Shown here: one piece after another, positions 21,078 to 26,179 of the stretch
Numbering within the stretch: the stretch's first letter is position 1
How the letters are laid out: each line of letters begins with the position of its first letter
Origin: an uncultured Poribacteria bacterium
GTDB taxonomy: Bacteria > Poribacteria > WGA-4E > WGA-3G
Length of the DNA: 64,000 bases
Assembly: GCA_951828385.1 (NCBI GenBank)
Contig: OX639973.1
Location: 248,001-312,000 of the forward strand
Reading direction: 5' to 3'
Notes under the pieces: generated by a model
Databases searched by the model: none
Told to the model about the DNA's origin: nothing
Seen by the model: the letters and a program-made list of their open reading frames with translations, nothing else
Position numbers and translations under genes: made by a program

Positions 21078-22130
21078 CTAATAACGCTTCGGCGATGGTT
21101 GGGCAACGCGAATGCCACGATCATGTGTGAACGGGAACTCGAATTCTAAAGTTTGATACCGTTGCGCCGCGCCCGGCGGTGGTGCCTTCTCGATAGGTAG
21201 GATGACCTTTAATTCCAGAGCGTTATACTTGGTTTGTACAAACGGCAAGAAACCTTCCGCACTTTTACCGGGCGGTACGCCTGTTCGGTGTGCACCCACC
21301 TGTTTTTCAACAACAGACATCCGTTTTTCGATCAAAATCCGCCGTGCGATTTCCATTCCATTTTTGACATAAAGTCCTGATGCACGTGCCATGTAGAGAA
21401 GACGTTCATCTAAATCTTTGTAATTCAGCCCGTGATAGATATTCTCGCCCTGATCGATGATCTGGCATTTTTTGACATCAAAGATGATATTTTCGTTCCG
21501 ATTGTTAGTAATCTTCACATAAAACACATCTGTTTTGTCGCCTTGGTGAAGTGCTTCGGTCTCATAAAAAGGTGAAAATGCGTTCCCACGATTGTACTTC
21601 CGGTCTAAGTCCGGCCGTCGCCAATATGCGATAGAAACGGTAATCCCATCCACCGTTTTGGTTAGAATTGGCTGTCTTGACTGAACGTCAAAGAGCTGTG
21701 GATGGTCAGACATCATGATGACATCAACGATCTTCCTATCTTCACCCGTGCCGAGCTCAATCTGATTTTGAGTCTCCTGCCACTCACCGAGGAAGTTAAT
21801 CCATTGGTCTTCGGCGTGTGCATATTCATCGAACGCGAAGATGTAGGTTAACACTTCCATATTCGCATCGCGTGCTTTCCCGATCCAGAATCCGACAGTC
21901 TCCATACCGTATTTGTCCAACACCGGTTTCGCGAGTGCCTCAGCGGGGACAGCTGGAACAACCACCTCTTCGTTCGGTTTTTCACTCTGTTCCATCTTCG
22001 CTTTTGCTATATTATGCACAGGCTGAATCGGCGACAGATTGCTGAGGGCGGTACCGCAACCTGCAACGCTAAACGCGAGTGCAAATAGTAAGACGAAATT
22101 GAGTGCTGTGAATTTATTCAACCATTTCAT
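21078..22130 (-). CDS. Lipoprotein, unknown function
   Basis: 350 aa. The start is the ATG of MKWLNKF, with AAGGAGG eleven bases upstream; a GTG-type start at 22157 is less likely. The signal peptide ends in lipobox VAGC, so it is lipid-anchored. The body (about 60-350) is mixed alpha/beta and contains FWIGKARDANMEVLTYIFAF and a C-terminal beta-rich part. No catalytic motif was recognised. It is monocistronic: terminator on its downstream side, non-coding region upstream. Confidence 0.7.
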   Translation of the reverse strand: MKWLNKFTALNFVLLFALAFSVAGCGTALSNLSPIQPVHNIAKAKMEQSEKPNEEVVVPAVPAEALAKPVLDKYGMETVGFWIGKARDANMEVLTYIFAFDEYAHAEDQWINFLGEWQETQNQIELGTGEDRKIVDVIMMSDHPQLFDVQSRQPILTKTVDGITVSIAYWRRPDLDRKYNRGNAFSPFYETEALHQGDKTDVFYVKITNNRNENIIFDVKKCQIIDQGENIYHGLNYKDLDERLLYMARASGLYVKNGMEIARRILIEKRMSVVEKQVGAHRTGVPPGKSAEGFLPFVQTKYNALELKVILPIEKAPPPGAAQRYQTLEFEFPFTHDRGIRVAQPSPKRY

Positions 22131-22242
22131 TGATAATATTGCCTCCTTGGTTACCATTCAACGAATGGCAAGTTCTTTTCACCTAATCTTCGGGCAGGAA
22201 GCCCAAACTTTAAAGTTTGGGAGGAATGCCCGCTCCTTTTTT

Positions 22243-22271
22243 TTGACAAGTAACTTCAAAAATGTTATACT
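22243..22271 (+). promoter_or_regulatory. Consensus promoter inside the IS200/IS605-like element
   Basis: TTGACA (22243-22248), 17-nt spacer, TATACT (22266-22271). It is one of the best promoters in the window, although no protein gene lies downstream on this strand until 30307. Confidence 0.65.
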
Positions 22272-22277
22272 ATTCCT

Positions 22278-22551
22278 TGTAGTGTCCGGTTGCGAGTTAT
22301 GCTGCTGTTTCGCTACCCCCGTGTGCGACTCGTGTAAAGCTACAGCACGATACGGAAAAGAAACAGACGGATGCTTGAGAGAGACACACTCGCACTTTTT
22401 AGGCTTAACCGCCAGCGAGAAACTCATTTTAGCCCTGCTGCGGGGCTTCGTGGAGAGCGGTGGGTTACCACCCTCTGTGAAGCGAGAAACAAGAACGAAG
22501 CACGAGACTTAGGCTTTAACAAGCCCAAGTCTTTAGGCTTGGGTAGTTGAC
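22278..22551 (+). ncRNA. Putative structured RNA, omega-RNA-like
   Basis: A transcript from the promoter at 22243-22271 would start near 22278 and end near the element's right end. It can form several stems: GCCC/GGGGC near 22435, GAG-GGTGG/CCACC-CTC around 22455-22478, and CCCAAG/CTTGGG at the 3' end. A stem-rich 3' half ending in the right-end hairpin matches the layout of TnpB guide (omega) RNAs, where the guide follows immediately after. There is no tnpB here. This is inference from layout; no covariance model was run. Confidence 0.4.
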
Positions 22552-22713
22552 TTGGCATCCCGGGATACTCAACCGATCAGTACATTAGTTTTACAACTAA
22601 TTTTGAGAACGCCGGAGTAAAGTCCAAATGGCGCGTCTAAAACTGAATATATTTTACAAATTAGCATAACTCCAATTTTTAGTCAAGAAATATCTAAGAA
22701 GAATTCGTAGAAC

Positions 22714-24849
22714 TTACTTCACAACGCTGAACTTTCCAATTTCTTGGATAAGTAACGCCGCCTGCTTTGCGGAGATGCGATAGATATAGATGCCAGATGC
22801 AACAGGCGTACCCCTCAGATTCGCACCGCGCCACTCGAATTTCCCTTGTGAAAATACGTTTTGGTGTGCTTCTTTATAGACAAGCGCACCTGTAGGTGTA
22901 AATATCTCAAGGTCAACGTTATCCACGATTTGAGAGGCAGAGAGCCGATAAGCGAACGTCAGCGTTTCACTCGCAAGACGCAGTGGGTTCGGATAGACGC
23001 GTGTCTCCTCAAAGGCAAGTGTTTCCGCCTGAAGCTGTTCGACCCGCAACCGGTAAGAGTCCACACTGCTGAATCCTTCCTCCGATTCTACAACGAGGTA
23101 GAATGTGTCTGTCCTATCCGGTTGGTAAATGAGTTTCAATCCAGCAATTTCAGTCGCATTTTCACCCGTAGCGTACACTTCGCCAGTCGCCGCATGGAGA
23201 GATAACCGATATTTATTATTCGGTGGAATATCAGCCAATGTCACTAAAAGCGTAATTCCACGGACAGCTTGCAGTTCATAGACATCGCGGACATCCGTCG
23301 CGTCGAAAATGAAAGACTCATAAGTTTCGCCATACATGATAGGAAAGGCTGTCACAATTGTATCATTAGGTTCGTAAGTGTCCCCAAAAGATATCAGCAT
23401 CGGGATCGTTAGCCCTTCCGCGCCTATGTTCGTAATAGAGATACCGGTAACAGTACCATCGTTTGCATTGCTATTCGGGACTGTGCCAGGTGTAAAGGCT
23501 GTATGTCCATCATCTAAAGAATAAGCAGCACCATCGGTTATCGTTAGCACATTTATAGATTCAATTCCGTCTTGTTGATAGGTACCGAGATGCTCAGGGT
23601 CTGTCGGATCTTCGAGCCATACCTGATGCGAGGCATCATAAGTGCCAACCGGGTAGGGATCTGTTTCATCAATGTGCCAGATGAGGATGCCTGATTCTGG
23701 TAGATAGGTATCAAAGGTTGCACCTGACACCTTGTTCCGGTTTTCTATAAGAAAAAATTCCGTTGCTTCCCCAGCCTCTGGGTTTCTTGACGAATGGATA
23801 TCAATTTTGAAAAGCTTATTGGTTTTGGGACCGAGTTCAAAACTGGGCACATCAATTTTCTGGTTTTCGGTTATCTCAACGGGTTGGATCCAACCGAGGC
23901 GACCATTTTGAGGTCTTGCATCAAAATCCCATTTGAGATACCCCGTGATATGACTCGGTTCCAAGCCATTTCCAATCCCAAACGCCTCAGGGCCTTGATA
24001 GGGACCGAAGGCACCCATCAATCCCCATTTATGGTCGTATGGACCTCTGAAGACTCCGTAAACATCAGGCGCACCGAAATCGTGAAAGAATTCGTGAAAG
24101 TAGATACCTAAGTGTGGGTGCTCAAAATCTGGTTCTTCAGCAACAATTGCAGCGGTATTGACGCGGACACCATCATGAACAGCGTTCACAGCAGGTATGA
24201 GAAGGGACTGGATGTCATCAATGACATTAGTAGAGGCTTCGTCATTCCCTGAATGGATTAGGAAAACATGATCCACGATGCCATCATTGTCTCTATCGTA
24301 TTGCGAAAAATCAACTGTTGCATCTACCGCCTCGCAAGCCTCGCGCACCAATTCCCGATAACGTTCCAAGATTCGGACACCTTCGCCGTAATACGTCATC
24401 GGTTTTTTCGCGCGAATCCAAGTGTTCCCTCTCGGAAGGACACCTCCCATCGGCCCTGGTTGTATATCCATCTGCCCATAGGAATTTTCGCGATAATAAG
24501 TTTTGAGAGAAACGCCTTCTGTTGCGAAGAGATATTTATCGAACGCAGCCCCGTCTCTGCGCCCTGGCATGTCGCTGAAATCTATCTTCAAGGCGAGCAC
24601 ATATTCTATACCGTCAGACTGCAAAACCCCTTGCGCGTTGGCGAAACAACAGCCTTCCAATCTTTCAAGAAATTCAACGCCGCTTTGAGGTGCCTTGGGT
24701 ACCAATTCACCACTCGTAGAATCTTCATTAAAAAAGAGATAAGGATTCGGAGGGGCGGCGATGCTTAACGGAGAAAAAAGAAAAAAGATGTGTAAGCTGA
24801 CGATGCTAATCATCAGTTTCTGCCAAGTTCTTATTTGCATAATTTGCAT
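22714..24849 (-). CDS. Exported M6-family metalloprotease (immune inhibitor A-like)
   Basis: 711 aa from the ATG at 24849, just after the stop of the upstream gene; ATGs at 24840 and 24813 are alternatives and none has a clear ribosome site. A signal peptide is followed by an M6 catalytic domain with H252-E-F-F-H and DFGAPD, the HExxH zinc site. Before it is a calcium-like DRDNDGIVDH segment. Further C-terminal beta domains (about 480-610) include a pre-peptidase-like domain beginning DTYEPNDT. The last 85 residues form an FlgD-like/T9SS-type sorting module (YPNPLRL, GIYIYRISA). It is probably secreted or cell-surface. Confidence 0.85.
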   Translation of the reverse strand: MQIMQIRTWQKLMISIVSLHIFFLFSPLSIAAPPNPYLFFNEDSTSGELVPKAPQSGVEFLERLEGCCFANAQGVLQSDGIEYVLALKIDFSDMPGRRDGAAFDKYLFATEGVSLKTYYRENSYGQMDIQPGPMGGVLPRGNTWIRAKKPMTYYGEGVRILERYRELVREACEAVDATVDFSQYDRDNDGIVDHVFLIHSGNDEASTNVIDDIQSLLIPAVNAVHDGVRVNTAAIVAEEPDFEHPHLGIYFHEFFHDFGAPDVYGVFRGPYDHKWGLMGAFGPYQGPEAFGIGNGLEPSHITGYLKWDFDARPQNGRLGWIQPVEITENQKIDVPSFELGPKTNKLFKIDIHSSRNPEAGEATEFFLIENRNKVSGATFDTYLPESGILIWHIDETDPYPVGTYDASHQVWLEDPTDPEHLGTYQQDGIESINVLTITDGAAYSLDDGHTAFTPGTVPNSNANDGTVTGISITNIGAEGLTIPMLISFGDTYEPNDTIVTAFPIMYGETYESFIFDATDVRDVYELQAVRGITLLVTLADIPPNNKYRLSLHAATGEVYATGENATEIAGLKLIYQPDRTDTFYLVVESEEGFSSVDSYRLRVEQLQAETLAFEETRVYPNPLRLASETLTFAYRLSASQIVDNVDLEIFTPTGALVYKEAHQNVFSQGKFEWRGANLRGTPVASGIYIYRISAKQAALLIQEIGKFSVVK

Positions 24850-24883
24850 AAAATGTAAAAAATAACGAGGGATGACAACCGGC

Positions 24884-26179
24884 TTAATCAAATTCGCCTC
24901 CGCACTTCCGGCATAAGATATAGAACTGAATATCATCGGATTGGGCATGTTGTATGATCAGATCAACCGCTTGTTGTGGTAGATCCGCCGCGCATTTCGG
25001 ACATTTGTAGAGCGACCCTTCCGTTTCAGGGAATCGGGTGATGTCGCCCCAGATATCTCGGATCCAGTATTTGAATTCCCAAGGTATTTCCGTATCGACA
25101 GCCGTCGCGATTTGCACAGCATGTCGAATAAGTTTTCGACATTCATGAATGGAGGCAGGCTCGTAGAGGTGTGGTGAATACCTGAGTCGCAGGGGTTTTC
25201 CTTCTGTCTCAGTTTGCGCGTTGAAATCGCGGGCGCGGGTGAGCAAAATCTGATCCAAGCGTGAACCGGCTTCGCGCCCTTTAGACCAGAAGCGATAGTA
25301 ACCCGTTCGTTTGATATGAAAAAAAGCAGGTGTGTTGCGCGATCTGTTCGTTGTGTCGTCTGATGCGGTATCCCAGAGCCAGCGTCCCCACTTAGAGGTA
25401 TCATCAGGTTCGGACCAAATTTTTATCGCCCCTGGACCGCCATCCCTATCCCACGGCTTCGGCTGCGCGTCATCCATACCGATCCAATACGAGTCTTTGC
25501 TATATTCAAAGAAAACTCGCGCCCAGAGGTACCACTTCCCAGTTTTGGGGATATAAATTTCGTGCATCGCGCGCGCGCCCGGTGCACTATCAATAGCTTT
25601 GCCACCGGAGGCTTCCTCGTGATCAACAATGTTCACGCCTTTATCCAAGTGAATCGCGTTATCCGCTTCAATAATAAGCGTATCCTTCGGTACCCGAATA
25701 ACTTCCTCAGGTTCATCTGCGTGGTGCAGATCTAACGGTTCATCAAGGTTGTAACTCTTCGCGATTCTTTGTGAAACTTTCTCAAACTGCTTTTCCGAGA
25801 GGTTCGCATCAAAAAAACAGTCTCGGATACCTTTCTTCCATAGATCAAGCAAGAGAAACATCGCTTTCAAGTTTCCATCCGGGCGTTTTCGAGTACCAAC
25901 GACGATTAACATACCTGTATCTTTAGAACGACTGATCAAACACCGATGGATCGGAAAATTTGATTTCTTACGAACTCTACTTGATACGACGAGTGGTGCG
26001 TAGTAGCGACATTTCGCATCGCACCCCGGAATCTTTGCACGTTTGGCTCTACAGCATTCCGGACAGATTAACATACCGCTGAGGGCCGGACAAACGCGTT
26101 TCCCATTACTCGAACGACAAGTGCGACACCTCTGGCTTTTATGCCGTCTTGCTGATGTTTGTCGTCTCTCACGTCGCAT
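24884..26179 (-). CDS. Zinc-finger protein with CBM6-like central domain and C-terminal zinc ribbon
   Basis: 431 aa. The ATG at 26179 has GAGGG upstream and is preferred over the GTG at 26191. Residues 15-65 are basic and Cys-rich, with the order CRTC, RVCPAL, ICPECC, GC-x3-C-x-YY, an N-terminal treble-clef-like module seen on diverse proteins. The middle (about 165-325) resembles a CBM6-type or architecture-related beta sandwich (IEADNA...GKWYLWARVFF, SYWIGMDD). The C-terminus has CPKC and CRKCGGEFD, a zinc ribbon. No signal peptide is present, which is odd for a CBM6-like fold. Its function is unknown. It lies between the flotillin and M6 genes on the same strand. Confidence 0.7.
   Translation of the reverse strand: MRRERRQTSARRHKSQRCRTCRSSNGKRVCPALSGMLICPECCRAKRAKIPGCDAKCRYYAPLVVSSRVRKKSNFPIHRCLISRSKDTGMLIVVGTRKRPDGNLKAMFLLLDLWKKGIRDCFFDANLSEKQFEKVSQRIAKSYNLDEPLDLHHADEPEEVIRVPKDTLIIEADNAIHLDKGVNIVDHEEASGGKAIDSAPGARAMHEIYIPKTGKWYLWARVFFEYSKDSYWIGMDDAQPKPWDRDGGPGAIKIWSEPDDTSKWGRWLWDTASDDTTNRSRNTPAFFHIKRTGYYRFWSKGREAGSRLDQILLTRARDFNAQTETEGKPLRLRYSPHLYEPASIHECRKLIRHAVQIATAVDTEIPWEFKYWIRDIWGDITRFPETEGSLYKCPKCAADLPQQAVDLIIQHAQSDDIQFYILCRKCGGEFD

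Follow-up and report, generated by a model that had tools for sequence, protein, structure and literature searches.

We describe a jumping element of 369 bp, located at 22183-22551 on the plus strand of a 64-kb window (the whole stretch of DNA analysed) from the genome of a Candidatus Poribacteria bacterium (6.66 Mb, one contig). The element holds no gene, as judged from the list of open reading frames (ORFs), and is probably a PATE-like, non-autonomous element of the IS200/IS605 type that produces a stand-alone omega RNA and relies on a resident TnpB in trans for its own retention.

Mobility and ends of the element

Orthologues of the left flank are found in 36 of the 38 genomes of the genus. 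We fetched 15 orthologous loci, including the element's own copy, and obtained the junction for 13; the element is absent from all 13, and four of these (L157, L158, L160 and L161) are precise empty sites in which both flanks align without a gap. The occupied site in the window reads ...TTCTTTTCAC, the 369 bp element, then TTGGCATCC; at the empty sites, ...AAGTTCTTTTCGC is fused directly to TTGGCATCC, or to TTCGCATCC in its place in L161. These gap-free sites therefore define the element as 22183-22551, inserted without target duplication 3' of TTTTCAC (22176-22182, plus strand), the presumed TAM, for which the relatives have TTTTCGC fused directly to the right flank. IS200/IS605 elements insert 3' of a short motif and do not duplicate their target. 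The first-pass annotation had drawn the element at 22190-22551: its right end stands, and its left boundary is corrected to 22183 by the empty sites of the four relatives.

For the second genomic copy, L031 (389 bp), relatives with empty sites exist too: in L217, for example, ATTTCAC is fused to TGATAACTC. TCAC or TCAT adjoins the left end at 18 of the 26 family loci with sufficient upstream sequence, as counted by eye. The element is thus mobile, and both the window copy and L031 inserted 3' of a short motif without target duplication. Among 28 family loci inspected, insertion at the same site in two species is apparently confined to the L085/L086 pair. Phage, plasmid and viral collections searched for the element gave no match.

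The ends are palindromic. At the left end, inverted repeat I1 (22191-22232, plus strand) has arms that are 76% complementary with 0 nt between them and a perfect core of 20 nt (22202-22221); a copy with 74% identity lies at the right end (22521-22543), which terminates in GGGTAGTTGAC (22541-22551, plus strand). Similar left ends, 71-88% identical, occur at 14 further places of the same genome, relating these near-terminal palindromes to resident IS605-type elements, and the ORF list places neither a tnpB nor a tnpA inside the element. The matching palindromes, the right terminus, the lack of both genes and the reading of the element as a PATE, all proposed in the first-pass annotation, are borne out by these ends, by the absence of a gene and by the precise insertion adjoining TTCAC with its empty sites. 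Five other left ends in this genome (L042, L043, L046, L049 and L050) have no tnpB ORF behind them; L043 looks like an element consisting of ends alone, and at L050 the leader RNA persists with tnpB absent.

The element sits between a minus-strand gene (21078-22157) and another gene (22714-24948). The start codon of the former lies about 25 bp away (intervening positions 22158-22182), and the insertion may separate this gene from its own promoter.

A predicted transcript with an omega-RNA scaffold

A putative sigma-70-type promoter, TTGACA-17-TATACT (22243-22271, plus strand), agrees with the motif as first called, with 11 of 12 matches and a TG preceding the second hexamer. From the predicted transcription start at 22278, the plus-strand transcript would comprise three parts: a conserved 5' RNA domain of 89 nt, the head (22278-22366; alignment A1, covariance model R2); a middle hairpin region (22367-22426), in which CTCGC (22389-22393) can be seen to pair with GCGAG (22415-22419); and a type 1 omega-RNA scaffold with the right end (22427-22551), recognised by identity with tnpB 3' ends, by covariation and by a TnpB relic. 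Within the scaffold lie stem 1 (22432-22446), stem 2 (22454-22476) and the right-end hairpin (22524-22543). By analogy with TnpB omega RNAs, the predicted guide was placed in the right flank (22552-22571, plus strand), and this 20-mer occurs once in the genome, allowing up to 3 mismatches.

For the predicted 274-nt transcript, the folding energy is -92.3 kcal/mol (z = -2.0; 4/200 shuffles equally good), a modest single-sequence signal too weak to rely on by itself; the strong evidence is comparative. Rfam gave no match at gathering score anywhere in the 64-kb window, and a relaxed threshold yielded chance-level scores only. The match to known RNA models that had been looked for was thus not found, which may reflect an Rfam that does not contain this group of RNAs.

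The suggestion that the element is an exapted guide RNA, or more broadly a host regulatory small RNA, fares poorly. The strong promoter and the location, some 25 bp ahead of the start codon of gene 21078-22157, would suit such a role; yet the insertion is missing at 13 of 13 orthologous junctions, with 4 precise empty sites, and no other place in the genome matches the guide within 3 mismatches. We regard exaptation as very improbable.

Comparison with resident tnpB elements identifies the scaffold. A search of the genome with the element returned 38 matches, among them nine loci (L032-L040) that each carry a tnpB ORF of 410-438 codons; the 3' ends of these ORFs share 86-97% identity with the element's scaffold core. 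Three representative proteins have TnpB domains according to Pfam, and across the whole genome 54 TnpB matches exceed the Pfam cut-off, versus 12 Y1 TnpA matches. The scaffold matches the tnpB 3' end and abuts the right end; it is a relic of TnpB codons 388-436 from which the coding tail before the right end has been trimmed away. The middle hairpin region was not found in tnpB elements among the loci of this genome compared. The proposed resemblance to omega RNA is therefore supported by identity with tnpB 3' ends, together with the covariation described below, and a cognate TnpB is encoded elsewhere in the genome, as had been anticipated, at nine tnpB loci with a match of this scaffold type. 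None of the 12 Y1 TnpA loci of the genome has matching ends; there is one weak right-end match. No adjacent transposase with matching ends was found at those tnpB elements whose scaffold or left end is shared with the element. A tRNA gene (L048:25-98) directly precedes one tnpB element of this genome.

The transcript might instead act as an antisense regulator of tnpB or tnpA, for which there is a precedent in the regulatory RNA that IS200 makes in Salmonella, according to the accessible part of that report (PMC12594629). However, the transcript has no minus-strand match to tnpB loci of the genome (E 0.5), and comparison of eight TnpA loci gave a single 24-nt match, at the right end. Antisense regulation is accordingly hardly credible.

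A family with a common head and two scaffolds

The block common to the window copy and L031 is 93% identical and begins exactly at the predicted +1 (22278), whereas the left end and the promoter region differ between the two. In a search across 84 genomes of the phylum, the first 90-100 nt of this block recur without a match to the scaffold. Covariance model R2, built on the 5' domain, gives 30 hits in 20 of the 84 genomes, 19 of these hosts belonging to the same genus and one (G018) to another family; L107 is a partial copy, and L254 (R2 E 6.7e-4) stands outside the counts. A 28-nt pattern matches 25 times in 16 of the 38 genomes of the genus, and its reversed control 0 times. Copy number is low, at 1-3 per genome.

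We inspected 28 loci in 20/84 phylum genomes and sorted them by eye into 13 with the type 1 scaffold, 11 with type 2 and 4 decayed; the scaffold is lost at 4/28 loci. Type 2 scaffolds match the 3' ends of another group of TnpB proteins (MAKKRKRK...). Most copies retain both the right end and, downstream of it, an unoccupied guide position. In 9 of the 11 genomes that hold a type 1 member, an intact tnpB of the same scaffold type was recognised, either by its open frame or by a spacing of about 1.2 kb between tnpB leader and scaffold; the remaining two genomes are G079 and G018.

The head is more uniform than what follows it. Alignment A1 (25 of the 28 loci; L086, L093 and L099 omitted) has a mean column identity of 90%. 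Comparing 11 of the 13 type 1 with 8 of the 11 type 2 loci, the mean identity of the 5' domain is 0.94 within type 1, 0.90 within type 2 and 0.905 between types, and that of the scaffold is 0.77, 0.80 and 0.535 (shuffled mean 0.24, maximum 0.52). For the middle region, a between-type identity of 0.45 (control mean 0.27, maximum 0.50) is only suggestive of homology across types. A promoter score of at least 9/12 at a fixed position upstream of the 5' domain was found at 21/28 loci versus 240/5600 mononucleotide shuffles (4.3%); the other seven loci, including L031, score 7-8 and have no recognisable sigma-70 promoter. At L031, L082, L085, L086, L087 and L099, a second, different sequence, from which a sigma-70 promoter is absent, lies upstream of the 5' domain and is perhaps another promoter.

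Two possible origins of the head were considered and rejected. ATG and FRYP-like codons seen by eye had pointed to a remnant of the tnpB N-terminus, and tblastn found no N-terminal match (E 1e-3); with three TnpBs as queries, the family loci yielded C-terminal relics only (residues 371 onward) or nothing. The second candidate was a version of the pseudoknotted leader of tnpB, and the model of that leader (R1) has 0 matches in 26 loci at E values up to 10. Both the 5' domain and the tnpB leader sit at +1 and permit the drawing of a crossing helix, and we do not claim homology between them.

The leader itself is a separate observation from outside the window. The tnpB elements of the genus (alignment A2; L034:230-313 and others) carry a pseudoknotted leader RNA, about 84 nt long, which lies at the predicted +1 immediately ahead of the tnpB start codon; in this leader 19/28 pairs are double-changed (58 double-changed cells versus a shuffled mean of 18.2), and 6/6 pairs of the crossing helix covary. 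Model R1 finds it in 46 of the 84 phylum genomes and 39 times in this genome; Rfam gave no match to it at gathering or relaxed thresholds. An HDV-type ribozyme was considered for the leader and set aside on account of the 4-nt loop and short junction. The leader possibly controls tnpB translation or RNA processing.

Covariation points to constraint on the RNA. In the type 1 non-coding scaffolds (alignment A3; 14 rows, 13 distinct), 97.3% of cells are paired and 9/20 pairs are double-changed; there are 37 double-changed cells versus a shuffled mean of 12.6 (0/500), and the covariation score is 0.434 versus 0.151 when shuffled (0/500) and at most 0.115 in slid controls, values that are not to be read as probabilities, since the rows are kin by descent, with the structure drawn on the same sequences. 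A3 includes L109, L110 (contig end) and L111, in which the 5' domain is unseen, and omits L086, a near-duplicate, and L102, which is truncated. More informative is a set of 53 scaffold copies, in which stem 1 is inverted (GCCCTGCTGCGGGGC for GGGCAGCTGCTGCCC) in 6 non-coding copies and in 0 of 35 coding copies, defined as those with an open frame of at least 87 codons, and a U-A version of this stem (GGGTG/CACCC) is likewise confined to non-coding copies. Type 2 elements (alignment A4, 9 rows from 9 of the 11 loci; L105 and L106 omitted) have 18 double-changed pairs among 64 predicted, including the middle hairpin. Scaffold secondary structure is thus conserved, by covariation, in both types. 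Compensatory stem changes occur in the non-coding copies and are absent from the 35 coding ones, which suggests selection acting on the RNA itself. High conservation of the 5' domain leaves little variation for a covariation test, and its signal is weak: a single pair has 10 double-changed cells (mean 4.0, 1/500), but the number of double-changed pairs is 1 versus 0.8 (329/500), and further pair types fall below the shuffled mean.

This constraint has to be weighed against an inert, MITE-like deletion derivative, in which the scaffold would be kept merely as overlap with the right end that TnpA needs, the rest hitchhiking. Right-end hairpins are needed as DNA, some of the family copies have decayed, and PATE-like elements of Halanaerobium consist of ends plus the 3' part of tnpB, as given in the available portion of that report (PMC7290912). 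Several features speak against such a derivative: stems 1 and 2, situated 75-119 bp inward of the right end, carry compensatory changes, identity of the 5' domain stays near 90% from genome to genome although left end and promoter vary, the middle hairpin covaries, and there are only 1-3 copies per genome. We therefore consider an inert derivative unlikely and favour an element that makes a stand-alone omega RNA.

Proposed retention in trans and known systems

Under the guide-RNA reading, the element would have lost both genes and be mobilised in trans, its only cargo being a TnpB guide RNA that stands alone under a promoter of its own. Transcription would begin near 22278, pass in turn through the head, the middle hairpin, the omega-RNA scaffold and the right end, and continue into the right flank, the part that would become the guide. 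A TnpB from an intact type 1 tnpB element elsewhere in the genome would bind the scaffold and, directed to the predicted target TTCAC-TTGGCATCCCGGGATACT, cut TTCAC-TTGGCATCC..., the empty site left after excision; a chromosome copy would then serve repair, and the element would be restored. The head may help the RNA to survive or assemble although it is not a translated mRNA. The empty site of the closest relatives has TTCGC, not TTCAC, and may escape cutting. TnpB-driven transposon retention was reportedly described by Meers et al. in 2023.

Alternatively, the RNA could be a decoy that binds TnpB and blocks cutting, protecting element or host instead of guiding. Bearing an extra head, the scaffold could tie up TnpB unproductively, and part of the TnpB mRNA inhibits cleavage in another system, as stated in the section of that paper available (PMC10278001). 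Most copies, however, keep a right end and free guide position that a decoy would not require, although transposition also needs the right end. A decoy is, in our view, rather improbable, less so than exaptation and more so than an inert derivative.

For the family as a whole, we tentatively suggest, at slightly less than even chances, a long-lived guide-RNA-only transposon family whose dedicated head has been joined to the scaffolds of two TnpB groups, switching nuclease partners and parasitising TnpB in trans for retention. If true, RNA-guided retention would extend to elements that carry RNA alone, and TnpB would be a resource shared within the genome rather than the private gene of each element. 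The family would also offer natural TnpB guide RNAs that stand alone, are driven by a promoter and bear an extra domain, which might serve as a template for formats that separate guide and nuclease, and it would be a setting for testing the selfish-retention idea without tnpB in cis.

PATEs themselves are already known; the new part is the dedicated RNA head common to two scaffolds. In the full-text literature searched, to which subscription papers mostly do not belong, we found no account of a family whose elements keep just the TnpB guide RNA and have an extra head in common. According to the accessible text on Haloquadratum walsbyi (PMC3119063), its PATEs are, like the present element, short, devoid of transposase and bounded by near-terminal IS605-related palindromes, with no target duplication, and in some the core is reported to be deleted and the termini fused; that text does not describe them as guide RNAs, whereas the Poribacteria element would make a structured RNA with its own predicted promoter and a dedicated head. 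The 271-nt PATE-like element of Halanaerobium hydrogeniformans, composed of 28 nt from the left end, the final 58 nt of tnpB and the entire 160-nt right end, would likewise keep an omega-RNA region, but it is a single copy, for which the available part of the report describes no promoter, extra RNA domain, family or covariation test (PMC7290912). As in the omega RNA or reRNA of TnpB, the scaffold derives from the tnpB 3' end and the guide lies in the right flank (PMC10278001, PMC8612924, as far as their available sections go); those RNAs are made in cis from tnpB mRNA (PMC10278001, same sections), and the one proposed here would be made without tnpB and with a head added. Finally, a Fanzor-only non-autonomous element, as presented in the excerpted report (PMC10711439), resembles the present one in lacking a transposase, but it keeps the nuclease, whereas the Poribacteria element keeps the RNA only.
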